From the NCBI RefSeq assembly GCF_030064165.1, contig NZ_CP125947.1, positions 2,170,001 to 2,234,000 on the forward strand: a stretch of DNA of 64,000 nucleotides, read 5' to 3'. The notes under the pieces are model-generated. The model did no database searches and was not told the origin of the DNA. It saw nothing but the letters and a program-made list of their open reading frames with translations. Shown here one piece after another: positions 43,719 through 55,345 of the stretch. Each line of letters opens with the position of its first letter. Within the stretch, counting starts at the first letter, position 1. A program made the position numbers and the translations under genes. This DNA comes from Comamonas resistens (GTDB lineage Bacteria > Pseudomonadota > Gammaproteobacteria > Burkholderiales > Burkholderiaceae_C).

Positions 43719-44765
43719 ATGATAGAAATTCGGGACTTATCCCTGACCTATAAAGGCCCCAAGGGGCCGGTGCACGCCTTGCGTGGCATCAACCTGGAAA
43801 TCGCCTCGGGCGAAGTGTTCGGCATCATTGGTCGCTCCGGTGCGGGCAAAAGCTCGCTGGTGCGCTGCCTGAATCTGCTCAACCGCCCCACGGCAGGCAA
43901 GGTCATCGTCAACGGTCGCGACCTGATGCAGCTGTCCGATGCCGAGCTGCGTGCTGCGCGTCGCGACATCGGCATGGTGTTCCAGCATTTCAACCTGCTG
44001 TCCTCGCGCACGGTCTATGACAACGTGGCCCTGCCGCTGGAGCTGGCCGGTATTTCCAAGGATGAGATCTATCAGCGCGTGACGCCGCTGCTGGAGCTGG
44101 TGGGGCTTGATCATCTGTCCGATCGCTATCCAGCCCAGATTTCCGGTGGCCAGAAGCAGCGTGTGGGCATTGCCCGTGCACTGGCAAGCAATCCCAAGGT
44201 GCTGCTTAGCGACGAGGCAACCTCGGCGCTGGACCCCGAAACCACGCGTTCCATTCTGGATCTGCTGCGCAAGGTCAACCGCGAACTGGGCGTGACCGTG
44301 GTGCTGATCACCCACCAGATGCTGGTGATCAAGCAGATTGCCGACCGTGTGGCCGTGATCGATGGCGGCGAGATCGCCGAGCTGGGTTCGGTCATCGATG
44401 TGTTCACCCGTCCTCAGCAGGCGATTACCAAGAGCCTGATCGACGAGATCGTGCCTCAGCAATTGCCTGAATCCGTGATGACCCGTGTGAGTCAGCTGGC
44501 CGCCCAGTTGCAGTCCGGTCAGCAAGGTCGGCTGCTGCGCCTGTCCTATGCGGGCGAGAGCGCCTATCAGCCCATTTTGTCGCACCTGATCCGCGAACTG
44601 GGTCTGGATCTGTCGATCCTGCACGGTCAGATCGACGAGATTCAGGAGCAGACCTTTGGCTCGCTGGCCGTGTATGCCAGTGGCGAGGCCGCCAAGATTG
44701 AGGCGGCCGTGGAACACCTGCGCGCCAGCGGTGTGCTGGTGCAGATCGTGCCGAGCAAGGACTGA
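43719..44765 (+). CDS. metN: Methionine ABC transporter ATP-binding protein MetN
   Basis: A 348-residue ABC ATPase that powers import of D- and L-methionine. Walker [13 protein letters not shown] (residues about 38-49), Q-loop, the signature [15 protein letters not shown] and Walker [13 protein letters not shown] are present. The C-terminal region (about 270-348) is the NIL/ACT-like domain that binds methionine and inhibits transport. The gene is followed by metI after 5 bases. The start at 43719 has only a weak ribosome-binding site (GGGG). Confidence 0.95.
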
Positions 44766-44770
44766 TAGAG

Positions 44771-45436
44771 ATGTTTGAGAATTTTTCGGAAATGATGCTC
44801 CAGCTGCTGCTGGATTCCTTCTGGGAGACGCTGATCATGGTCGGCGTCTCGGGCCTGATCGGCGGCCTGATCGGTATTCCTCTGGGCGTGTTTCTGCGCC
44901 TGACCGACCATGGTGGCATTTTGCAGAACGGCCCGGCCAACAAGATCGTGGGCTGGATCGTCAACGCATTGCGCTCCACGCCTTTCATCATCTTGCTGGT
45001 GGCCATCATTCCGCTGACGCGGCTGATCACGGGCTCCTCCATCGGCACCTGGGCTGCCGTGGTGCCGTTGACGATTGCGGCCGCACCTTTCGTGGCCCGT
45101 CTGGTGGAGACCGCGCTGCGTGAGGTCGATGGCGGCCTGATCGAAGCAGCTCAGTCCATGGGCGCGACCACCGGCCAGATCGTCTGGAAGGTGCTGCTGC
45201 CCGAGGCGCTACCCGGCATCGTCGCGGGCCTGACCATCAGCTTCGTCAGCCTGACCGGCTACTCGGCCATGGCGGGCGCCATCGGCGGCGGTGGCCTGGG
45301 TGACCTGGGCATTCGCTATGGCTACCAGCGCTTCCTGCCCGACGTGATGCTGGTCGTGGTGATCATTCTGATTTTCTTTGTGCAAGCCATTCAAAGCCTG
45401 GGTGACTGGGCCGTACGTCGCCTCAGCCATCGCTGA
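44771..45436 (+). CDS. metI: Methionine ABC transporter permease MetI
   Basis: A 221-residue inner-membrane permease with five helices. The EAA-like loop (VDGGLIEAAQSMGATTGQIVWKVLLPEALPGIV, residues about 118-150) contacts MetN, and the C-terminal GYSAMAGAIGGGGLGDLGIRYGYQRF block is typical for MetI. It directly follows metN and is ended by a hairpin at 45527 before the SSB-like gene and metQ. Confidence 0.95.
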   Translation: MFENFSEMMLQLLLDSFWETLIMVGVSGLIGGLIGIPLGVFLRLTDHGGILQNGPANKIVGWIVNALRSTPFIILLVAIIPLTRLITGSSIGTWAAVVPLTIAAAPFVARLVETALREVDGGLIEAAQSMGATTGQIVWKVLLPEALPGIVAGLTISFVSLTGYSAMAGAIGGGGLGDLGIRYGYQRFLPDVMLVVVIILIFFVQAIQSLGDWAVRRLSHR

Positions 45437-45526
45437 GCAGCGGCGCACATTACAAAAAATTAAGAAAAGGGGCGCCGTCTGGAAACAGGCGCCAGCCCTA
45501 AAATGCAGGTTCAAAATTTTTTGAAA

Positions 45527-45562
45527 GGCCGCTCTTGTTCAAGGGCGGCCATGATTTTTTTT
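45527..45562 (+). terminator. Hairpin with T run after metI
   Basis: GGCCGC, a 12-base loop and GCGGCC, then ATGATTTTTTTT. It could end or attenuate the metNI transcript before the next gene and metQ. Confidence 0.65.
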
Positions 45563-45578
45563 GGGTAGATAACAGCAA

Positions 45579-45887
45579 ATGATGGATGGTTTGATTACCG
45601 GCCGACTGACCGGCGTTCCCGAAAGCCGCGTGGACCGCAACCGACGCCCCTATATGGTGGCTCGCATGCGCGCCAACGCTGGCGATGGTTCTTCGATTCC
45701 TGTGAATATCGTGGCTTTTGACAACGCACCCTGTGCGGTGCTGCGCAGCCTGTCCGAAGGCGATGCGATTGCGTTGCGCGGCAGCTTCACGCCCAAGGTC
45801 TGGATTGACAGACAGGAGGAGTCGCATGCCGTGCTGGACGTGGTGGCCCAGCAAGTGCTGGCCGCGCCCACGCTGTCCGACCTCTGA
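45579..45887 (+). CDS. Short OB-fold (SSB-like) protein
   Basis: A 102-residue protein. GLITGRLTGVPESRVDRNRRPYMVARMR, then VNIVAFDNAPCAVLRSLSEGDAIALRGSFTPKVW has the strand order and key positions of a single-stranded DNA-binding OB fold, but the acidic SSB tail that recruits repair proteins is absent. It may be an accessory SSB or PriB-like protein. It sits inside the methionine transport cluster between metI and metQ with hairpins on both sides, so it is probably transcribed partly on its own. The start could also be the second ATG (45582). Confidence 0.65.
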   Translation: MMDGLITGRLTGVPESRVDRNRRPYMVARMRANAGDGSSIPVNIVAFDNAPCAVLRSLSEGDAIALRGSFTPKVWIDRQEESHAVLDVVAQQVLAAPTLSDL

Positions 45888-45912
45888 GTCAGCCCGCTGC
45901 CTCATCGCCATC

Positions 45913-45947
45913 AAAAGCCCGCCTCTGCATTGATGGCGGGCTTTTTT
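45913..45947 (+). terminator. Rho-independent terminator after the SSB-like gene
   Basis: AAAAGCCCGCC, loop TCTGCATTGAT, GGCGGGCTTTTTT: a perfect stem with T run. It implies that metQ downstream has its own promoter. Confidence 0.88.
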
Positions 45948-46061
45948 GTGAGCGCTTGCACAGGCATCTATCGCGCCGTAGTTTGCAAGTAAGCAAACTG
46001 TCTAAGCGCCAGCGTCCGTAGGCGCCGAGTAAGCGCTACAGTAGCCGCCACCTAACCCTCA

Positions 46062-46144
46062 TAGGATTGACGCAAACAAGGGTGCGCCAAGAACTGTTGC
46101 CTGAAAGCGAAGCTCTTGCCTGAACCTGATTTGCGCAAGTCTTG
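46062..46144 (-). mobile_element. MITE-like repeat, copy 2 (83 bp)
   Basis: The ends TAGGATTGACGCAAA (46062-46076) and TTTGCGCAAGTCTTG (46130-46144) are degenerate versions of the inverted ends of the copy at 16866. A 26-base block at 46107-46132 is the exact reverse complement of 16878-16903. It lies 26 bases upstream of the metQ start, so it is in the metQ leader or promoter. No clear target duplication is visible. Confidence 0.7.
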
Positions 46145-46170
46145 CTTTATTTCCAGCGCAAGGATTTCTC

Positions 46171-46971
46171 ATGCTGAACAAGCGCGCATTGCTGCGTAAC
46201 TCTCTGGCCCTGGCTGCGGCCGCAACCCTGGGTCTGACTGCCCAGGCCGAAGAAAAGACCATCAAGATCGGCGTGACTGCCGGCCCCCACGCCCAGATCA
46301 TGGAAGTGGTCAAGAAAGTGGCTGTCAAGAATGGTCTGAACCTCAAGATCATTGAGTTCGGTGACTATGTGCAGCCCAATGCAGCGCTATCGGCGGGCGA
46401 CCTGGACGTCAACAGCTACCAGCATCGTCCCTATCTGGACGCCCAGGTCAAGGACCGTGGCTACAAGATCGGCTGGGTGGCTGATACCGTGAATTTCCCC
46501 ATCGGCATCTACTCCAAGAAGATCAAGTCGCTGGCCGATCTGCCCAGCGGCGCCAAGTTCGGCCTCCCCAACGATCCCACCAATGGTGGCCGCGCATTGC
46601 TGCTGCTGCAGACCCAGGGGTTGATCAAACTCAAGGACGGCGCGGGTCTCAAGGCCACACCGCTGGATGTGGTGAGCAACCCCAAGAAGCTCAAGTTTGT
46701 CGAGCTTGACGCCGCCCAGCTGCCGCGCTCGCTGGACGATCTGGATGCTTCCACGGTCAATACCAACTTTGCCATCTCGGCCGGTCTGAACCCCAAGAAG
46801 GATGCGATTGCACTGGAATCAGCCAAGAACCCCTATGTGAACATCATGGTGGTGCGCGACGCCGACAAGAACCAGCCCTGGGTGGCCCAGCTGATCAAGT
46901 CCTATCACTCCGAGGAAGTGCGCCAGTTCATTGACAAGGAGTTCAAGGGCTCCGTCTTCCCGGCGTTCTAG
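46171..46971 (+). CDS. metQ: Methionine ABC transporter substrate-binding protein MetQ (operon copy)
   Basis: A 266-residue MetQ/NlpA-family binding protein. The N-terminal segment RALLRNSLALAAAATLGLTAQAEE is a signal peptide without a lipobox. VTAGPHAQIMEVVKKVA, FGDYVQPNAALSAGD, LPNDPTNGGRALLLLQ and VNTNFAISAG are family blocks. It serves the MetNI permease encoded just upstream, although a terminator and the MITE copy intervene. It is related but not identical to the solitary MetQ at 13237, which may give the cell two binding specificities. AAGGATTTCTC precedes the ATG. Confidence 0.93.
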   Translation: MLNKRALLRNSLALAAAATLGLTAQAEEKTIKIGVTAGPHAQIMEVVKKVAVKNGLNLKIIEFGDYVQPNAALSAGDLDVNSYQHRPYLDAQVKDRGYKIGWVADTVNFPIGIYSKKIKSLADLPSGAKFGLPNDPTNGGRALLLLQTQGLIKLKDGAGLKATPLDVVSNPKKLKFVELDAAQLPRSLDDLDASTVNTNFAISAGLNPKKDAIALESAKNPYVNIMVVRDADKNQPWVAQLIKSYHSEEVRQFIDKEFKGSVFPAF

Positions 46972-47222: not shown

Positions 47223-47918
47223 TTATTCAAGAGTCTGAAACCATTCGGCGATCGGGGCGCGGGTGGTGTGGGTCTGGTTGACGGGGGCGGCGTCGTCGGC
47301 CCAGCCCAAGGCCAGGCCGCAGACGATGTGCTGGTGTTCGGGCAGCTCCAGGACGCGGCGCACGGTGGCGGGGTAGGACGCCAGGGCACCGATGGCACAG
47401 CTGCCCAGGCCCATGGCTGCTGCGGCCAGTTGCAGACCGTAGAGCGTCATGCCCAGGTCCATATAGCCGCCGGGGCCGAAGTGGGAGTCTATGGTCACGA
47501 CCAGCGCCACGGGGGCGTCAAAGAACCGGTAGTTGCGGGCAAACTGCGCGTCGCGCCCGGCGCGGTCGTCGCGGGCCACTCCGAGAGCGCTGTACAGGGC
47601 CTGCGCCGCCGCCACCTGGCGCTTGCGCAACTGCATGGGCATGGGGCGGGGGAAGTAGGCATAGTCTTCCTGCTCCGGGGCCTGGCTTTCAAAGTCCTGC
47701 AGCAGTGCATCCGTCAGTTGTTGGCGGCGCCGGCCTTGTACCGCTATCAGGCGCCCGGGTTGCAGATTGCCGCCGCTGGGCGCGCGTCTGGCAGCCAGAA
47801 GCAGCTGTTGCAGCAGTTCATCTGGCACGGCATCGGGCAGAAAAGCGCGGCTGGAGCGGCGCTGCAGCAGCCATTGCAAGGCTTGCGAATTTTGCATGGC
47901 GGTATCGTTCAATCGCAT
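47223..47918 (-). CDS. Nitroreductase family protein
   Basis: A 231-residue FMN-dependent oxidoreductase fold. RRSSRAFLPDAVPDELLQQLLLAARRAPSGGNLQPGRLIAV is the FMN-binding N-terminus, and GLGSCAIGALASYPATVRRVLELPEHQHIVCGLALGW the C-terminal conserved region. It is the last gene of the minus-strand biotin/CoA cluster, 79 bases after the thiolase. Its substrate is unknown. An 11-bp tandem repeat (CGCATATCGGT, 47914-47935) spans the start codon at 47918; ATG 47897 is an alternative start. Weak ribosome-binding sites leave the start uncertain. Confidence 0.85.
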   Translation of the reverse strand: MRLNDTAMQNSQALQWLLQRRSSRAFLPDAVPDELLQQLLLAARRAPSGGNLQPGRLIAVQGRRRQQLTDALLQDFESQAPEQEDYAYFPRPMPMQLRKRQVAAAQALYSALGVARDDRAGRDAQFARNYRFFDAPVALVVTIDSHFGPGGYMDLGMTLYGLQLAAAAMGLGSCAIGALASYPATVRRVLELPEHQHIVCGLALGWADDAAPVNQTHTTRAPIAEWFQTLE

Positions 47919-47997
47919 ATCGGTCGCATATCGGTCAAGGGGCAGGTGCCATGAATGATGGTGGTTCTGTCATTGCAACCGCAGCACTCATCAGCAG

Positions 47998-49188
47998 TTA
48001 TGCCAGCCACTGCACCAGAGTGCCGGCGCCAATGCCGCCAGCGCCTGCAATGGCGGCCATGCCCAGTGCGCCGGGTTGGCTGGCTGACTGCAGCTGAGCC
48101 AGGCAGCGCACCAGTGCGATCGCGCCCGATGCCCCGATAGGGTGGCCGCGAGCCAGGCCGCCGCCTTGGGCGTTGATCTGCTCGGGCTGCAGGCCCAGCG
48201 CCGCGCAGAAGGCCAGACCCTGCACGGCAAAGGCGTCATGCAGCTCGATCGCGGACAGCTCATCTACTGAGAGATCCGATTGCTGTAGCGCCTGCGCGCC
48301 ACGTTGCAGCAGCTTGTGCGTGGCGGTGATGGAGGCAAGCATTGGCGTCTCGGGCGCTGCCCCTACGGAAGCGCTGGCCAGCCATTGGGCACGTGGCTTG
48401 AGCTGCCAGCGCGCGCATGCTTCGGGCGTGGCCAGCAGCAGCAGGGCTGCGCCATCGGCCTTGGCCGAGATGGTCAGTGCGCTCAGCCCGTGCATGTCGT
48501 CCAATCCGCTTTGCGCCACGATGGGCATGCGCGCCGCACGGCTGACGGTCAAGTTGCGGGGATAGGCGTCATGACCCAACCCTGCGAGCGCCGTGATTTC
48601 GGCACTCAGCAACGATTGCGCGGCCGTGGCGCGATGATGGCTTTGCAGGGCGTAGCGTTCCTGTGCCTGGCGGCTCAGGCCTTGCCGCTGGGCATAGTCG
48701 GCGGCGGACTGCAGCATGTCCGGGTCGCGCGCCGGGTCGGGGGCAAATGGCGGGCGCTCGTAGCTTTGTGGCAGCTCTTCGGCATGGCGCGGGCGGGTCT
48801 GGCGTATGGGGGCGCGGCTCCAGGCTTCGGCACCGCCTGCAATCACCATCTGCGCCTGGCCGGACTGCAACAGACCCACGGCCATGGCCACGGCATCCAG
48901 GCCGGAGCAGCATTGGGTATCGATGCTGTGGGCCGCGCAACTGTCGGGCAGGCCTGCAGCCAGAGCCAGCATGCGGGCGGGGTTGCCGCCGGCGCCCAGC
49001 GCATTGCCCAGCACCACGGCGTCTATGGCCTGAGGCGGCAGGCCGGGTTGCGCCAGCAGCGCCTGCAGCAGCGGCGCGCCCAGTTCGTGACAAGCCAGCT
49101 GGCTCAGCGCACCACCCACGGGCGCCACAGGGCTGCGGGTCCAGGCCAGAATGGGAACGCCGCTGGAGCTGGTCTTTAGCTGTGCCAT
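47998..49188 (-). CDS. Thiolase-family protein lacking the second catalytic Cys
   Basis: A 396-residue thiolase fold. The nucleophile Cys is in DTQCCSGLDAVAMAV (residues about 91-105) and the catalytic His in GGGLARGHPIGASGAIALV. The C-terminal base, normally Cys in CIGGGxG, is Ala (AAIAGAGGIGAG), and the usual NEAF motif is HDAF. It therefore looks like a divergent or specialised thiolase, perhaps acting on bulky acyl-CoA or needing another base. The start at 49188 overlaps the acyl-CoA ligase stop by 13 bases. The much longer frame to 50793 runs through that gene and is rejected. Confidence 0.88.
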   Translation of the reverse strand: MAQLKTSSSGVPILAWTRSPVAPVGGALSQLACHELGAPLLQALLAQPGLPPQAIDAVVLGNALGAGGNPARMLALAAGLPDSCAAHSIDTQCCSGLDAVAMAVGLLQSGQAQMVIAGGAEAWSRAPIRQTRPRHAEELPQSYERPPFAPDPARDPDMLQSAADYAQRQGLSRQAQERYALQSHHRATAAQSLLSAEITALAGLGHDAYPRNLTVSRAARMPIVAQSGLDDMHGLSALTISAKADGAALLLLATPEACARWQLKPRAQWLASASVGAAPETPMLASITATHKLLQRGAQALQQSDLSVDELSAIELHDAFAVQGLAFCAALGLQPEQINAQGGGLARGHPIGASGAIALVRCLAQLQSASQPGALGMAAIAGAGGIGAGTLVQWLA

Positions 49189-50699
49189 GGCTGAAGCGCT
49201 GGCAGGTCGGCGGTGCTGCTGCCGGTGTTTTGCATTTGCTGCAGGGCTTTGCCAATGCGGCCGTGATCGGTCTTGCCGCTCGCGGTTTGCGGCCAGGCGC
49301 TGCATATCCACCACTGGCGAGGCACTTTGAACGCCTCGGTGCGTTCGCGCAGCCATTGGGCCAGTTGCAGTGCACCGGGCGGCTGGGTACCTGGCCGCCA
49401 CTGCAGCACGGCCTGGACTTGCATGCCGCGCAGCGCATCGACCTGACCGTGCAGCGAAACCTGGGCAATCGCCGGATGGCTGGCCAGCAGGTTTTCCACC
49501 TCTTCGGGAAACAGATTCTTGCCCTGGGTGACGAGCATGCGGCTCTGGCGTCCCGCCAGGCAAAGCATGCCGCGTTCGTCGATATGGCCCATATCGCGCA
49601 CGGACAGCCAGTCGCCGTCGCGCAGCACGGCCGTGGGGTCGTGGGCATCGCCCACATAGTCCATGAACAGCATGGGACTGCGGATATAGATCAGGCCGTC
49701 TTCGGCGTGAGCTGCTCCCGCCTGCGCAATGCAGGGGTCCGCAGTGGGACGGATATCGATTTCCACATTGCTGAAGGTGCGTCCAACGGCTTGCGGGCTG
49801 CTGGCTTCGTCGGCTTCCATCCAGGCGACAAAGCTGGCTTCGGATGCACCATAGAACTCGATGATGCGGGCCTTGGGAAAGAGCTTGCGCAGTGCAGGCG
49901 TGTGGTCGCGCATCCAGCGTGCGCCGCTGATGGTGATCAGCTCCACCTCGGGGATGGGCGCGATATGGCGGTGCTCGGCCCATTGCAGCATCAGCAGCAA
50001 CTGGCTGGGCACGGCGACCAGGCAGGGCGTTGCGCCGCTGGCCAGAGTCGTCAGGCAGCGCGCGGCAGAGAATTTCTCCTGCATGACGGCGCCCGTGCCA
50101 TACCAGATGCCTTGCATGGCGCCGAACAGAAACAGCGAGTGCGAAATACGGCCCGGCGCCAGGGTACGCTGGGCCACCAACGGGCCAAAGTCCTGCAGTC
50201 CCACACGAAAGCTCTCTGTCCACGAATGGTGGTGGCGCTTGAAACCCTTGGGCAGGCCAGTGCTGCCGGAGGTAAAGCCAGTATAGAAGGCGTCCAGCGG
50301 GTGGGCTGCGTCGTGGGTTGATGGTTGCAAAGGCAGCCAGCCCGCTATGCGCTGGCGTACAGCGGGCTGCCAGTCGGGGTCGGCCACGGCGGCGCAGCGG
50401 CCGCTGGCGATGATGGCGAGAAAATCCACCAGTCGTTGCAGTGTGGACTGGTTGGCGTCTATCAGCACCATCTGTGGCGCGCGCCTGGCAATCAGCGCCT
50501 GGCAGCGCTTCTGTACCTCTGCATGCAGCTGGGCAAAGTTCAGAGTGCCTGCTTCGCTTTGCAGGGCCACGACATCTGGTCGGTGCCGGGCCCAATGCGC
50601 AAGAGGGCCATGCACCAGCTGCCAGAAGCCTTGTAGCGGCGCATGGGCGGGAGCAAGGCCTCCAGCGGCTTGCATGGCAGTCACGTGGACAGAGTTCAT
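49176..50699 (-). CDS. Acyl-CoA ligase (AMP-binding family)
   Basis: A 507-residue adenylate-forming enzyme. The P-loop FTSGSTGLPKGFKRHHHSW is at residues about 142-160, motif A5 is EFYGASEASFV, the D/R core is GDWLSVRDMGHIDERGML, and the catalytic Lys is in QTASGKTDHGRI at the C-terminus. It would activate a carboxylic acid as an AMP ester and transfer it to CoA. Its start overlaps bioY by 4 bases (ATGA), and it is followed by the thiolase. The acid is unknown; biotin, desthiobiotin or pimelate-type acids are suggested only by the gene context. Confidence 0.9.
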   Translation of the reverse strand: MNSVHVTAMQAAGGLAPAHAPLQGFWQLVHGPLAHWARHRPDVVALQSEAGTLNFAQLHAEVQKRCQALIARRAPQMVLIDANQSTLQRLVDFLAIIASGRCAAVADPDWQPAVRQRIAGWLPLQPSTHDAAHPLDAFYTGFTSGSTGLPKGFKRHHHSWTESFRVGLQDFGPLVAQRTLAPGRISHSLFLFGAMQGIWYGTGAVMQEKFSAARCLTTLASGATPCLVAVPSQLLLMLQWAEHRHIAPIPEVELITISGARWMRDHTPALRKLFPKARIIEFYGASEASFVAWMEADEASSPQAVGRTFSNVEIDIRPTADPCIAQAGAAHAEDGLIYIRSPMLFMDYVGDAHDPTAVLRDGDWLSVRDMGHIDERGMLCLAGRQSRMLVTQGKNLFPEEVENLLASHPAIAQVSLHGQVDALRGMQVQAVLQWRPGTQPPGALQLAQWLRERTEAFKVPRQWWICSAWPQTASGKTDHGRIGKALQQMQNTGSSTADLPALQPWHS

Positions 50700-51289
50700 T
50701 GACGTCCGCCAAAGCGCCAGTCAGGCATGCCGCGTGCAACAGTGTGGACGATGATGGCGCAGAGGATGCACTTGATGAAGTCGCCGGGCACAAAGGCCAG
50801 CGTCACCTTGAAGGCCTGGTCCAGGCTCATATTGGCCAGCAGCATCAGGCCCAGCACACCAAAGGCATGCAGGCACACCAGGCCGCCCAGCAGTGAAGCA
50901 ATGAATGCGCTGATGGCCGTGCGGCGGGGCGAGCTTTGGGGAAGTGCGGCCATCAGAGCGCCCACTATGCAGGCTGCCAGCGCATAGCCGAGCAGATAGC
51001 CGGCAGACGGCGTCATGAATACGCCAAGGCCGCCGCGCCCGCCTGACAGCAGGGGTAGGCCTACGGCGACGGCTGCAAGGAACAGCAGCATGGATTGCAG
51101 GCCGCGCCAGGGGCCCAGCATGACGCCGGCCAGCATCACGCCCAGCGACTGGATGGTGATGGGCACACCCAGTGGCAGATCGATCTTGGGAATCAGGCCC
51201 ATGACGGCCATGAGCGCCGCAAACAGCGAAACCTGCGCCATGGAGCGCGCGCCGCTGCGCGATACGGTGTGAGAGGGCGTGGTCATCAT
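50696..51289 (-). CDS. bioY: Biotin transporter S-component BioY
   Basis: A 197-residue inner-membrane protein with six helices. IPKIDLPLGVPITIQSLGVMLAGVMLGPWRG and GGRGGLGVFMTPSAGYLLGY are the BioY signatures for biotin binding. AGGAG is 5 bases before the ATG at 51289, which is preferred over an adjacent TTG. It is co-transcribed with bioM and bioN; together they form an ECF-type importer. A downstream acyl-CoA ligase overlaps its stop. Confidence 0.93.
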   Translation of the reverse strand: MMTTPSHTVSRSGARSMAQVSLFAALMAVMGLIPKIDLPLGVPITIQSLGVMLAGVMLGPWRGLQSMLLFLAAVAVGLPLLSGGRGGLGVFMTPSAGYLLGYALAACIVGALMAALPQSSPRRTAISAFIASLLGGLVCLHAFGVLGLMLLANMSLDQAFKVTLAFVPGDFIKCILCAIIVHTVARGMPDWRFGGRQ

Positions 51290-51297
51290 CAAATCTC

Positions 51298-51891
51298 CTA
51301 AAAACCCAGTCTTGCCCAGAGGGCATCAGCCACGCGGCGCGTGGCTTGCAGCATATGAATCGTCAGCGGGGCGATCAGACGCAGGCCGCCACTTTTGCCG
51401 GTGCGCAGCCGGTGCGCATCGTCGAGTTTTTTCCATTGCACAAAAAAATGCTCGGTAAAGCGCAGCATCAGCGCTATCTGCATGGCGACGCGCTCAACAG
51501 GGATGCCAAGTTTTGCCAGCGGCGAGAGCAGCCATTCCAGTACTTCCACCAAGTCGCTGGGGCGGGTGGTGATGGTCAGCGCAATTCCCAATGTGGAGGC
51601 ACAGATCAGGCGCAGCGCGCTGACGGCCGCCAGCTCGTAGTTGCTCATAAAGGCATGAAAGCCAGCCACCAGCAGCGCGGCGATGATGACCGAGCACATG
51701 AGCCGCCGGGCGATCTGTGTGGCCTGCCCCAGAGACAACCAGAGGATCAGGCAAACCAGCCCGGCACCTGCCAGCAGCAAAGGGGAGTTTGTCAAAAACA
51801 ATAGCGTTCCGCCTATCGCCAGCAGCAACAGCTTGAGGCCGGCGCGCCAGCCGTGCAGCCAGGTGGGGAACTCGCTGTAGAGGCTACCCAT
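51298..51891 (-). CDS. bioN: ECF transporter transmembrane component BioN
   Basis: A 197-residue membrane protein of the CbiQ/EcfT type with about four to five helices. VISLRL-like and ARG-type coupling residues lie in MLRFTEHFFVQWKKLDDAHRLRTG, near the C-terminus, which binds the ATPase. The start at 51891 overlaps bioM by 8 bases, and 8 bases separate its stop from the bioY start. With BioM (ATPase) and BioY (S-component) it imports biotin with high affinity. Confidence 0.9.
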   Translation of the reverse strand: MGSLYSEFPTWLHGWRAGLKLLLLAIGGTLLFLTNSPLLLAGAGLVCLILWLSLGQATQIARRLMCSVIIAALLVAGFHAFMSNYELAAVSALRLICASTLGIALTITTRPSDLVEVLEWLLSPLAKLGIPVERVAMQIALMLRFTEHFFVQWKKLDDAHRLRTGKSGGLRLIAPLTIHMLQATRRVADALWARLGF

Positions 51892-52618
51892 GAAGCGCCC
51901 CGCCTTGTGCGCGACTGTGTGCGCTTGCCGCAAGACGTGCGGCCACATCGGCCTCGTAGGCGCGGCAGACATGCGAGCCTGGACCGTCGCCGCGTATGCG
52001 ACCTTGCTCCAGCCACAACACGCGCTCGAAGCCTCTGACATGGTCGAGCACATGGGTGGAGACCAGGATCTGCTGCGATGCTGCCGCAATATCCTGCGCC
52101 AGCTTTGCCTGGCCTGGCAGATCCAGGCTGGCGAAAGGCTCGTCCAGCAGCAGCACGCTGGGCGCGGCAATCAGCAAGGACAGCCAGCAGACCTGCTGAC
52201 GTTGACCCTGGCTCAGGCTGCTGACCGCCCGCTCGGCCCAGTGAGCCAGCCCGCGTTGCGCCAGCATCTCGCGCGCCGCAGCCATGGCTTGCTGCTTGTT
52301 CAGACCCTTGGGGCGCAGGCCCAGTGCCAGCTCTTCTCCCACGGTGGGGAAGATGATCTGGTCATCGGGGTTCTGAAACATCAGGCCCACCAAGCCCGGC
52401 TTGCCCTGGCGTGCCTCCAATAGCGGCACGCCGTTGATCTGCACTTGACCGGTGGCCGGTGTTTCCAGCCCGCACAGCATGCGAAACAGGCTGGACTTGC
52501 CTGCTCCGTTGTCACCGATCACGCCAATGCGTCGCTCGGTCAGCTGCAGCTTGAGGCCGTCAAACACCGTGGTCTGACCGCGCTGCAGGCGCACGTCGAC
52601 GATCTGCAGCTCGGTCAT
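51884..52618 (-). CDS. bioM: ECF transporter ATP-binding protein BioM
   Basis: A 244-residue ABC ATPase of the ECF A-component type. Walker A GDNGAGKSSLFR (residues about 35-46), Q-loop MFQNPDDQIIFPTVGEELALG, signature SSLSQGQRQQVCWLSLL and Walker [13 protein letters not shown] are all present. It is the first gene of the cluster. The start at 52618 (MTELQIVDV) is preferred over a TTG at 52648; ribosome-binding sites are weak for both. It energises BioN and BioY for biotin uptake. Confidence 0.92.
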   Translation of the reverse strand: MTELQIVDVRLQRGQTTVFDGLKLQLTERRIGVIGDNGAGKSSLFRMLCGLETPATGQVQINGVPLLEARQGKPGLVGLMFQNPDDQIIFPTVGEELALGLRPKGLNKQQAMAAAREMLAQRGLAHWAERAVSSLSQGQRQQVCWLSLLIAAPSVLLLDEPFASLDLPGQAKLAQDIAAASQQILVSTHVLDHVRGFERVLWLEQGRIRGDGPGSHVCRAYEADVAARLAASAHSRAQGGALHG

Positions 52619-53181
52619 AGGGCCGGCAGCCGCAGGGCGGCGCTCCAACAGGGATGCAGGCAGGGAAGCACAGGGGCGGACAGCATGAAAACCAGAAACC
52701 TCGAATCAATTCACGCCACGGACACCCATGGCGAGGCGGATTCTAGCTCTGTGGAATTGCCTATAAAAGCTTTCAAAATCGAAGCTTTTTATGTGATTTG
52801 CATATAAGAAATCGCATCTTCAGTTTCCTGAATTTTGTGACTGAAGAAGGGGATGTTTTATCGACATTTGTAAGGCAGTTGAAGGTGATTTGCTTGCGGT
52901 TGAAAGATCCATGCCTTATCGGGATTGCTTTTGTATTTAACTCCGACGAAATTGAGGCAGAGGGTGTTGGAGAAGTCGGTGTAATCGACGAACTTGGCGG
53001 GTTTTGCAGGGCGTTTTCGATCGATTGCCATGCGATTGATTGCAAGAGATGCAAGGCGCAGTCTTGAAGGACTGGGTAAACCGTTTTTTCGAGGCGATTT
53101 GGCTTTGTTTGAGCGCATCAAAAAAGTCTCGGAAAAATGCAAGAAACGCTGTAGCACAGCACGGGAGACGGTGCGGGATGC
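52619..53181. other. AT-rich region upstream of bioM, no gene found
   Basis: Over 560 bases between bioM and the TonB receptor terminator. It contains the inverted repeat ATAAAAGCTT (52763-52772) / AAGCTTTTTAT (52782-52792), a possible promoter-proximal operator. No BirA-type TTGTAAACC dyad is visible. Small open frames on both strands (52773-53067) overlap each other, have no domain and differ in base composition from the flanking genes, so none is called. Confidence 0.45.
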
Positions 53182-53227: not shown

Positions 53228-55345
53228 CTAGAACTGGTAGCCAAGGCTGGTGCCCAGCATCCATTGACGCCCAGGTGCGGCTTCGTAATAGCGCTTGTTG
53301 CTCTCGTTGACGATGACGGAGCCGACATAGCTTTTGTCGGTCAGGTTGTCGATGCGGGCAAAAGTGTTGAGCTTCCAGGCCCCCAGGCGGTAGGTGTAGC
53401 CCACGCTGAGGCTGGCCACGTTGTAGCTGGGCGCGTAGACACTGTTGTCATCGTTGGCTGCGACCTGGCCCATGCGGCGCCAATCCAGACCCACGCGCCA
53501 GTCGGTGGCGGGAAACCAGTCCAGTCCCAGATAGGCCATGTTTTTGGCCGTGCCTGCGATACGTTTTCCGGCCGGAACAGTGGTTGTGCTGCCGTTTGAG
53601 TTCAGGTAGCCGTAGGCGCTACGCAGGCGGGCATCGAGCAAAGTCAAAGAGCCGTTGAGTCGAACTTGGGGATGAAGCCAGGCCGTGGTACTTAGCTCCA
53701 AGCCACGGCGGCGTGTCCTGCCTGCATTCTGGTAGCTGGTGTTGCCTTGATTGCTGGCCACCACAATCTCGTTGTCGGTCTGGGTCTGGAACAGTGCCGC
53801 AGATAAATCGCCGCGCATGCCTGCCATGTTGAAGCGCCGCTTGATGCCCAGTTCGGCGCTTGTGGAAACAGCGGGTTTGAGACTGAAGTTCAGGCCCGCA
53901 AGGTCACCTGGGCGGTAGGAAATCTCATTGAAAGTGGGCGTCTCCATGCCCCGACCCAGTGAGGCATAGAGAGTGCTGTCTTCGTTGAGCTGATGCTGCA
54001 GCGAGACCACTGGCAGAAGTTTGTGGAAGCCCGTGCTGCCGCTGCCGTTTCCGTCGGCCGGAAAGTGGTCGCTGGACTTGAACTGCACATTGCTCCAGCG
54101 CAGACCCGCATCAAGCTTCCACGTAGGAGCCAAAGCCCATGATGCCTGCAGATAGGGGTCGATATTGCTCAGCGTGTTGCGCTCGTCGCGCACCAGATCG
54201 CCTATCACGCCCAGCTGAGTTCCTGCAAAGTTCTTGTAGCCTTGGCGGTCTTCCTTGACGGTATTGGCAGACAGGCCCGCGATCAGCTTGAATTCGCTGT
54301 CGCCGAGCCGGTATTTGCCGCTCCAGCGTAGATCCAGGCCGCCATAGTCGCGTTGCAGACCGATGACGCCTCCCTTGAAGCCGGGTTGAGAGGCCTTGGG
54401 AGTGGACTGGAACTGCATCATTTCGCGTTGGCCCGCATAGACCATGAAGCGCAGTGCATTGCTGCCATCAAGCTGGCGTTCATAAGTCAGACCGGCCTGA
54501 GTCTGCTTGATGTGTTTGCGCGAGTCGTAGAGCAGGGCATTGGGCGTGGTCATGCGTGAATCCCTGGCCCAGTCTTCAGGGCTGATGCCGCCAGGGTCCT
54601 TGGCGTCGATTTTCACATGGTTGGCCACCAGTGTCAGCTTGCTGTACTCGTCCGGTTTGACGTCGATGCGCGCGTTGAACAGGTTTTTGTCGGCCGCGCT
54701 TTGCGCGCGGTAGCCGTCGGTGAGAAAGCGGCTGGCACCGAGCACATAGCCAATCCCGTTGGCTTCGCCCTTGGCTTTGAGGCCCAGGCGCTTTTGACCG
54801 TTGCTGCCCAGGGCGAAAGTGCTTTCAAGCCGGGGCTTGCCTTCGCCCTGTTCGGTATAGGCGTTGATGACACCGCCCGAAGCATTGCCGTAGAGCGCAG
54901 AGTAGGGACCACGCAGCACTTCCATGCGCTCCAGCGAGCCGATGTCGATATTGTTGGTCTGACCCTGGCCGTCGGGCATGGTGGCGGGAATTCCATCCAC
55001 ATAGATCTGTATGCCGCGCACGCCGAATGTGGAGCGGGCGCCAAAGCCGCGAATGGAAAGCTGCAGATCCTGGGCGTAGTTCTGGCGATTCTGCAACTGC
55101 AGGCCAGGCACGCTGACCAGCGATTCAGAAACATTGACCTGCCACTGGCGGTCACGCATGCGCTCGCCATCAATCAGGCTGATGGCTGCCGGTACCTGCT
55201 CCAGCGTGCTGGACTGCAAGGTGCTGCGGACGGTGACCTCTAAAAGCTGGGGCGTTGCTGCGTCCTGGGCCTGGGAGGGGGAAGTCAGCAGACTGGCTGT
55301 GATGACTGGCCAGCCGGCCAGACCACGCAGGCGTGGAAAACGCAT
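53228..55345 (-). CDS. TonB-dependent outer-membrane receptor
   Basis: A 705-residue outer-membrane receptor. A signal peptide (PVITASLLTSPSQAQ, about residues 13-27) is followed by a TonB-box-like stretch (LLEVTVRS), the plug domain (GLQLQNRQNYAQDLQLSIRGFGARSTFGVRGIQIYVDGIP, ERMEVLRGPYSALYGNASGGVINAYT) and a 22-strand barrel ending in Phe (LGTSLGYQF). Its substrate may be a siderophore, a metal complex or another large solute; nearness to the bio cluster invites but does not prove a biotin-related role. A terminator separates it from that cluster. Confidence 0.92.
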   Translation of the reverse strand: MRFPRLRGLAGWPVITASLLTSPSQAQDAATPQLLEVTVRSTLQSSTLEQVPAAISLIDGERMRDRQWQVNVSESLVSVPGLQLQNRQNYAQDLQLSIRGFGARSTFGVRGIQIYVDGIPATMPDGQGQTNNIDIGSLERMEVLRGPYSALYGNASGGVINAYTEQGEGKPRLESTFALGSNGQKRLGLKAKGEANGIGYVLGASRFLTDGYRAQSAADKNLFNARIDVKPDEYSKLTLVANHVKIDAKDPGGISPEDWARDSRMTTPNALLYDSRKHIKQTQAGLTYERQLDGSNALRFMVYAGQREMMQFQSTPKASQPGFKGGVIGLQRDYGGLDLRWSGKYRLGDSEFKLIAGLSANTVKEDRQGYKNFAGTQLGVIGDLVRDERNTLSNIDPYLQASWALAPTWKLDAGLRWSNVQFKSSDHFPADGNGSGSTGFHKLLPVVSLQHQLNEDSTLYASLGRGMETPTFNEISYRPGDLAGLNFSLKPAVSTSAELGIKRRFNMAGMRGDLSAALFQTQTDNEIVVASNQGNTSYQNAGRTRRRGLELSTTAWLHPQVRLNGSLTLLDARLRSAYGYLNSNGSTTTVPAGKRIAGTAKNMAYLGLDWFPATDWRVGLDWRRMGQVAANDDNSVYAPSYNVASLSVGYTYRLGAWKLNTFARIDNLTDKSYVGSVIVNESNKRYYEAAPGRQWMLGTSLGYQF

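Follow-up and report, generated by a model that had tools for sequence, protein, structure and literature searches.

Why should a biotin importer be encoded together with an acyl ligase, a thiolase and a nitroreductase? This question was raised by six open reading frames (ORFs) in a 64,000-nucleotide stretch of the Comamonas resistens genome (assembly GCF_030064165.1, contig NZ_CP125947.1, positions 2,170,001 to 2,234,000), which is called the window below; its genome of 5.3 Mb is denoted G000 in our numbering of genomes (G) and loci (L). All six ORFs were on the minus strand, transcribed from 52618 to 47223 in the order bioM, bioN, bioY, ligase, thiolase, nitroreductase. A preliminary description of the stretch had reported them as one cluster in which the first five genes overlap or abut, and this was borne out. 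The cluster is real and conserved, and it is a variant of a known unit. Judged by gene order and by the grouping of its enzymes, it is the predicted proteobacterial form of the yhfU(bioY)-yhfT-yhfS unit of Bacillus, here accompanied by energising subunits of its own and by a flavin enzyme. The features are as follows, with Pfam matches judged against the curated cut-offs.

51884..52618, minus strand: bioM, predicted energy-coupling factor (ECF)-type ATPase of the biotin importer; PF00005 (ABC_tran), 85.7 bits, above cut-off
51298..51891, minus strand: bioN, CbiQ/EcfT-type transmembrane protein; PF02361, 48.3 bits, above cut-off
50696..51292, minus strand: bioY, predicted biotin substrate-binding subunit; PF02632, 126 bits, above cut-off
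49176..50699, minus strand: YhfT-type AMP (adenosine monophosphate)-forming acyl ligase, 507 amino acids; PF00501 (AMP-binding) and PF13193 (AMP-binding_C), both above cut-off
47998..49188, minus strand: YhfS-type thiolase-fold enzyme without the second catalytic Cys, 396 amino acids; PF00108 (Thiolase_N) and PF02803 (Thiolase_C), both above cut-off
48910..48912, minus strand: codon of the nucleophile Cys93 (QCCSGLD), aligned with the CxS-loop Cys of 15 other thiolases
48046..48048, minus strand: codon of Ala381, by alignment the site of the CxG-loop catalytic Cys in other thiolases
47223..47918, minus strand: protein of the flavin mononucleotide (FMN) nitroreductase family, 231 amino acids; PF00881, 112.5 bits, above cut-off

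The first three genes gave the Pfam matches of a BioMNY importer, that is, BioY, an ECF ATPase and an EcfT-like protein, and they were adjacent on one strand. bioM and bioN overlapped by 8 bases, and 5 bases separated bioN from bioY, which started with TTG or with ATG one codon further on and was the sole BioY match in the genome. The ligase and thiolase genes lay directly downstream of bioY, as in a yhfUTS unit. bioY and the ligase gene overlapped by 4 bases, and the ligase and thiolase genes by 13 bases. The nitroreductase started 79 bases past the thiolase stop, and its co-transcription was less certain because of this gap. It carried the PF00881 domain and reached no NCBIfam cut-off.

The kinship of the two enzymes was examined with family models and trees. 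Bacilli were reached by a pattern search (26 named stretches), and 11 of those genomes were searched with the ligase model PRK07638 (NF005797). Its cut-off of 518 bits was reached in 7 of the 11 and in the B. subtilis control, and the best match in Bacillus spizizenii sat between BioY and a thiolase. When 200 genomes were drawn from the class of B. spizizenii and the 7 ligase candidates of each were scored, 15 genomes had a match at E <= 1e-90, and in 7 of these it was above the cut-off. B. spizizenii itself was one of the 15; the other 14 provided the sampled Bacilli loci discussed below. The window ligase scored 266.7 bits with this model, its best in NCBIfam (next 156), under the cut-off. 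Two ligases that scored higher, at 285 bits (G120) and 282 bits (G535), had no cluster-thiolase match nearby and fell outside the group in the tree. This meant that the PRK07638 score alone was no proof of family. In the case of the thiolase, the best equivalog model was PRK06690/NF005212, which we take to be the model covering YhfS, with 198.8 bits under a cut-off of 498 bits. The best match of the window thiolase in B. spizizenii was YhfS, with 158 bits; the thiolase that came next had 107.

Trees made by a quick method, with support from the Shimodaira-Hasegawa-like approximate likelihood ratio test (SH-aLRT) only and with limited sets of other enzymes drawn from few genomes, grouped the ligase with YhfT and the thiolase with YhfS. 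In the ligase tree of 66 rows, 36 cluster ligases including YhfT stood apart from 30 others (SH-aLRT 99), and the Bacilli rows did not form one group; rows outside 380-700 amino acids were dropped, and L176 and the paralogue L196 were absent. In the thiolase tree of 51 rows, 36 cluster thiolases (19 proteobacterial and 17 from Bacilli) stood apart from 15 others taken from three genomes (SH-aLRT 95), with L176 dropped as too short. Signatures common to Proteobacteria and Bacilli included FYxG, SW, SGAxW and SPM in the ligase, and DxQC, FxP and DP in the thiolase. The kinship of both enzymes with YhfT and YhfS, as judged from trees and signatures, was well supported. An origin of the two enzymes in a well-known unrelated pathway, which the preliminary description had named as a refutation of its proposal, did not agree with these phylogenies.

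The window cluster shared with yhfU-yhfT-yhfS of B. subtilis, for which sequences of B. spizizenii and relatives were compared, the order bioY-ligase-thiolase, the grouping of the enzymes and the missing second catalytic Cys. It differed by the presence of bioM and bioN in the operon, by the nitroreductase that followed and by the replacement of Asn with His in the NEAF loop. YhfS adjoined YhfT in all 14 sampled Bacilli loci, of which L175 and L177 had the order bioY-yhfS-yhfT and L176 held pieces only. BioY was found within the fetched 14 kb in 12 of the 14. The yhfS-yhfT pair of Staphylococcus aureus, compared by description, was alike by name and by its control by biotin, with a putative function; it differed in being listed apart from bioY. 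The statement that no characterised pathway has this exact set agreed with our full-text search of open-licence papers, which found none describing bioY or bioMNY with a ligase, thiolase or nitroreductase set. What had been overlooked was that bioY-ligase-thiolase in Bacillus, and yhfS-yhfT in Staphylococcus, were already known to be regulated by BirA.

The gene order was kept far beyond this strain, and the proposed refutation by strain specificity failed. BioY was sporadic, with 15 of 200 genomes of the order and 16 of 150 genomes of the family, 14 of the latter above the cut-off. The 28 BioY regions searched with the window's proteins were every above-cut-off place of the two draws except the window's own, some of them shortened by contig ends. 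bioY, ligase and thiolase were found on one strand in 17 other Burkholderiales genomes, which made 18 carriers with the window. bioM and bioN lay on the same strand as bioY in 16 of these 17 loci, and one ORF separated bioY from the ligase in G247. The nitroreductase was near the cluster in 12 of the 17, with 9 on the same strand and 3 inverted. The other 11 BioY regions, of which 9 came from further genomes and one each was the second BioY region in G403 and in G476, had no ligase or thiolase match. Among the 200 genomes of the order, profile A1 (E <= 1e-60) found the cluster ligase in 7, all within the 15 with BioY; scoring covered the best 7 candidates of each genome, so misses are possible. 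The chance of this co-occurrence was 2.8e-9 at random, with relatedness ignored. A PRK07638 scan of 185 class genomes returned mostly unrelated ligases and one new ligase-thiolase pair, in G145; this pair was at 9.2-11.4 kb of L032 (G145:C20:8000-27000), in a genome without bioB.

The cluster was also found on plasmids. A tblastn search of plasmids with the thiolase gave 6 records at E <= 1e-40 (Paracoccus, Alloyangia and Microvirga), and the 4 examined were all alphaproteobacterial. All six genes were present on plasmids of Alloyangia pacifica (NZ_CP154653.1) and Paracoccus aminovorans (NZ_LN832562.1). Paracoccus alcaliphilus (NZ_CP067125.1) had bioY and the genes for the AMP-binding protein, the thiolase and the nitroreductase. 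The Microvirga plasmid had bioMNY, ligase and thiolase, with no nitroreductase match within 17 kb. In the three loci that had it, the nitroreductase was opposite in strand to ligase-thiolase, as were the importer genes in Alloyangia, and this arrangement differed from that of the window. The annotation of these plasmid genes consisted of generic enzyme names only. Since the place of the nitroreductase was kept while its orientation varied, a functional tie was favoured over read-through alone. The ligase-thiolase pair is a repeated companion of biotin importers in Bacilli and in Alpha- and Betaproteobacteria, and BirA targets it in Bacillus and Staphylococcus.

The thiolase had been called atypical, and the alignment agreed with this. 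The window enzyme kept the nucleophile Cys93 and the GHP-loop His349, by which, together with its sequence family, it resembles the classical biosynthetic and degradative thiolases of the Zoogloea type. The catalytic Cys of the CxG loop was replaced by Ala381, and NEAF by HDAF. Although the TIGR01930 cut-off was reached (257.5 against 240.55 bits), the two Cys and the GHP His of a thiolase were not all there, because the second Cys was Ala381; 3 of 4 related thiolases scanned scored under the same cut-off. The nucleophile Cys and the GHP-loop His were conserved in all 36 cluster thiolases. The second catalytic Cys was present in none of these 36 and in 15 of the 15 others. Its site held Ala or Pro in 19 of 19 proteobacterial cluster thiolases and Gly in 17 of 17 from Bacilli. 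All 4 thiolases of the plasmids examined read AAAGG there. The NEAF loop read NEAF or NEAY in Bacilli and HDAF/HEAF or MEAYA/MESFA in Proteobacteria. The loss of the second thiolase Cys throughout the cluster was a new observation of this analysis. Judged from these residues, the cluster enzyme is not a normal thiolase. In normal thiolases, the CxG Cys acts as the base and accepts the proton during the Claisen reaction (PMC3406046).

Further evidence came from the neighbour genes in Bacilli, which were searched through shared BLAST clusters; this procedure may overlook isolated genes, for example one for an enoyl reductase or an acyl-CoA (coenzyme A) dehydrogenase. A pair of FAS1_DH and MaoC dehydratase genes lay beside yhfT-yhfS in 5 of 14 loci (L167, L168, L171, L173, L174), and a FabG-like short-chain reductase (SDR) in 6 of 14 (L171, L172, L173, L174, L175, L177). 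One or both were present in 8 of the 14. Pfam was run on the dehydratases of L167 and L173 and on the reductases of L172, L173 and L175, with one L167 subunit just under the cut-off; the remainder rested on BLAST clusters. By NCBIfam, the L173 dehydratases and one L167 subunit were HadA/HadB-like and the L172 and L173 reductases FabG-like, all under the model cut-off. In L173, the genes for the ligase, the thiolase, both dehydratases, the reductase and the first EcfA overlapped or were 0-2 bases apart. No dehydratase or reductase genes were recognised as conserved neighbours (shared BLAST clusters) in the Burkholderiales loci. These neighbours of the pair were a new observation of this analysis. 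Because ligase, thiolase, reductase and dehydratases lay together, we read them as a chain-remodelling gene set. The fullest Bacilli loci hold candidates for activation, condensation, keto-reduction and dehydration, which would make one two-carbon remodelling round.

Based on the above results, the reading we favour is salvage, by side-chain elongation, of a biotin vitamer whose chain has been altered. We give it a probability of about 0.35 as the explanation of the unit. The substrate would most simply be a biotin vitamer imported by BioY, because BioY is the usual partner of the pair; substrate and direction are both inferred. A biotin-related carboxylic acid would enter through BioMNY. The ligase would adenylate it and hand the acyl group to a thiol, either CoA or acyl carrier protein (ACP). 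The thiolase-fold enzyme would load the acyl group on Cys93 and condense it with a two-carbon unit. The donor would probably be malonyl-CoA or malonyl-ACP, since the enzyme has lost the base that a condensation without decarboxylation requires. If the condensation were decarboxylating, like that of ketoacyl synthases, this base would not be needed. Reductase, dehydratase and enoyl-reductase steps would then give a chain two carbons longer. The reductase and dehydratase might be those encoded beside the pair in some Bacilli and otherwise come from fatty-acid synthesis, and the nitroreductase is a candidate for one redox step.

The simplest use would be the rebuilding of biotin from shortened vitamers such as bisnorbiotin, which is a biotin catabolite formed to a limited degree in people (PMC11203980). 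A more specific form, an undescribed route in which bisnor- or tetranorbiotin enters via BioY and the valerate chain is rebuilt two carbons at a time by the dedicated ligase, a condensing thiolase with one Cys, and reductase and dehydratase steps of the fatty-acid type, in biotin auxotrophs and prototrophs alike, is tentative and somewhat unlikely as a whole. Salvage by elongation resembles the BioZ and BioC/BioH routes, which use fatty-acid synthesis for pimeloyl-ACP, in that a dedicated condensing step feeds a biotin-related acyl chain through fatty-acid enzymes. It differs from them in that they serve de novo synthesis via BioF, which most Burkholderiales carriers do not have. If true, it would be a new vitamin salvage route and would show which forms of biotin bacteria can share. 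The question is in any case narrowed, from general pimeloyl supply or a normal thiolase to a probable two-carbon remodelling of an imported acid.

Regulation linked the pair to biotin in B. subtilis and S. aureus. A comparative study of the BirA regulon in 2002 was reportedly the first to name yhfS-yhfT as members. BirA of B. subtilis binds three operators, one of them ahead of yhfUTS, and YhfU resembles BioY (PMC4016012). In S. aureus, yhfS-yhfT is a BirA target (PMC6391492, PMC7235819), the two genes being described as putative homologues of acetyl-CoA acetyltransferase and fatty acid-CoA ligase (PMC6391492). In an E. coli reporter, biotin repressed the S. aureus promoter, half-maximally at 10 nM (PMC6391492). 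BirA regulation of the yhf genes is repeated in PMC11089781, and the available passages of these four papers (PMC4016012, PMC6391492, PMC7235819, PMC11089781) give no biotin-related function for them. Unlike the BirA-regulated unit of B. subtilis, the window cluster had no BirA-like operator that simple patterns could match. Upstream of bioM in 17 loci, there was no match to three simple patterns, including those of a BirA half-site and of BioR, and no shared palindrome. An inverted repeat, AAAAGCTT-N9-AAGCTTTT, was seen upstream of bioM at window 52765-52789; it was not among the palindromes seen ahead of bioM in the remaining 16 loci.

Several results weighed against salvage by elongation. 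No enoyl reductase was identified in the loci, and no search was aimed at one. The NEAF-loop residue varied, with His or Met in Proteobacteria and Asn in Bacilli, and a single condensing mechanism was therefore not proved. Two loci that belong to the fullest, L173 and L174, had no BioY in the 14 kb fetched, and the G145 pair had no BioY match within 19 kb. The nitroreductase was not matched in 5 of the 17 related Burkholderiales loci and had no match in 19 Bacilli loci. Control by biotin was not shown for Proteobacteria, with no operator shared upstream of bioM in the 17 loci. In addition, a review reports only acyl-adenylates and no CoA thioesters with YhfT (PMC10988940), and loss of yhfT lowered surfactin (PMC10988940, PMC7960918). 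Because of these two results, a role in fatty-acid metabolism, or transfer to ACP instead of CoA, is possible.

A fatty-acid role would take the form of a biotin-sparing acyl supply. When biotin is limiting, acetyl-CoA carboxylase would falter, the ligase would activate fatty acids taken from outside or recycled, and chains would be rebuilt with the help of the thiolase-like enzyme, the link to BioY being one of shared timing only. The drop in surfactin supports this, as does a CRISPR interference knock-down at yhfT that cut amylase yield, which its authors ascribed to surfactin (PMC9936203), and BirA regulation fits as well. However, shared timing poorly explains why bioY is linked to the pair in Alphaproteobacteria, Betaproteobacteria and Bacilli with rearranged order. 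The conserved aromatic positions of the ligase and the lack of a CoA thioester with YhfT are also unlike a general fatty-acyl-CoA ligase, and we regard this explanation as unlikely.

The preliminary description had suggested that the enzymes act on the biotin side chain. This was plausible, but its simple shortening or catabolic form was disfavoured. Here, the product of the ligase would be biotinyl-CoA or an analogue longer than this, and a round of beta-oxidation would end with the thiolase, for catabolism or for detoxification of biotin analogues. The ligase, MaoC-type hydratase, SDR and thiolase could indeed run in the degradative direction too. However, the CxG-loop acid/base Cys was missing in 36 of 36 enzymes, biotin repressed the S. 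aureus yhfS-yhfT promoter (PMC6391492), and the unit was kept in genomes that had no bioB or bioF match and are obliged to scavenge biotin. Shortening is quite unlikely on this evidence.

The same genomes bear on the synthesis of a pimeloyl precursor for de novo biotin, for example from glutaryl- to pimeloyl-thioester. In the window's genome, bioB, bioA, bioD and bioF stood together and no BioC was above the cut-off, which would suit such a role. The Bacilli neighbours are also of the right reaction types, and 11 of the 15 Bacilli carriers had a bioF match. A de novo pathway should, however, co-occur with bioF, and among the 18 Burkholderiales carriers it was above the cut-off in only 2 (G000 and G316), with a match under the cut-off in G521 and none at E <= 1e-60 in the other 15. 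bioB was missing in 6 of these 18. In Bacilli, 4 of the 15 carriers had no bioF match and 3 no bioB match. G705, G727 and G542 had neither; their loci L171, L173 and L174 held dehydratases, reductase and ECF genes, and BioY was seen within 14 kb in L171 only. The presence of the cluster in carriers without bioF or bioB was a new observation of this analysis. Where bioF is absent the pimeloyl role was ruled out, since a pimeloyl product for BioF is useless there. The idea of a pimeloyl-type precursor, raised in the preliminary description, was thereby contradicted as a general role and rejected as such, and we hold this explanation to be improbable.

These gene counts have limits of their own. 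bioF was often missing near bioB in genomes without the cluster too, so its absence probably characterises the group and has no link to the cluster. bioB alone says little, because it was common without the cluster (10 of 14 such family genomes) and often stands alone. The distribution of BioC was uninformative, with methyltransferase matches in 40 of 40 genomes and 1 above the cut-off. Last, trapping of a biotin thioester on the thiolase-like Cys as a storage or hand-over form, which would suit a conserved nucleophile Cys and GHP-loop His with the condensing base lost, is very improbable; it does not explain why some Bacilli have genes for dehydratases and a reductase next to the pair.

Several smaller observations were made around these genes. 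Among 21 bioB regions (L203-L222 and L202, the latter G000:C1:214000-232000), bioA, bioB, bioD and bioF stood together in 4 (L202, L217, L218 and L222), and L210 and L211 had only a 30% bioA-like match. In G403, match coordinates put the second BioY (G403:C2:369374-370776) at a distance of about 70 bases from bioB, with no ligase or thiolase nearby. In one Bacilli genome, yhfT and the EcfT gene had an adenine-deaminase-like gene between them (L172, 7743-9461). In L170, yhfS was followed by a molybdoenzyme gene, which we took to be unrelated from a reading of its neighbour only. In the window, a TonB-receptor-like ORF (by reading; 53228-55345, minus strand) was located upstream of bioM. Because none of the 28 BioY regions searched gave a match to it, it was rejected as a member of the unit. 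On the other side, a MetNIQ-like importer (by reading; 43719-46971, plus strand) ended about 250 bases from the nitroreductase, and its third gene recurred near the cluster in 4 other loci (BLAST cluster c12).

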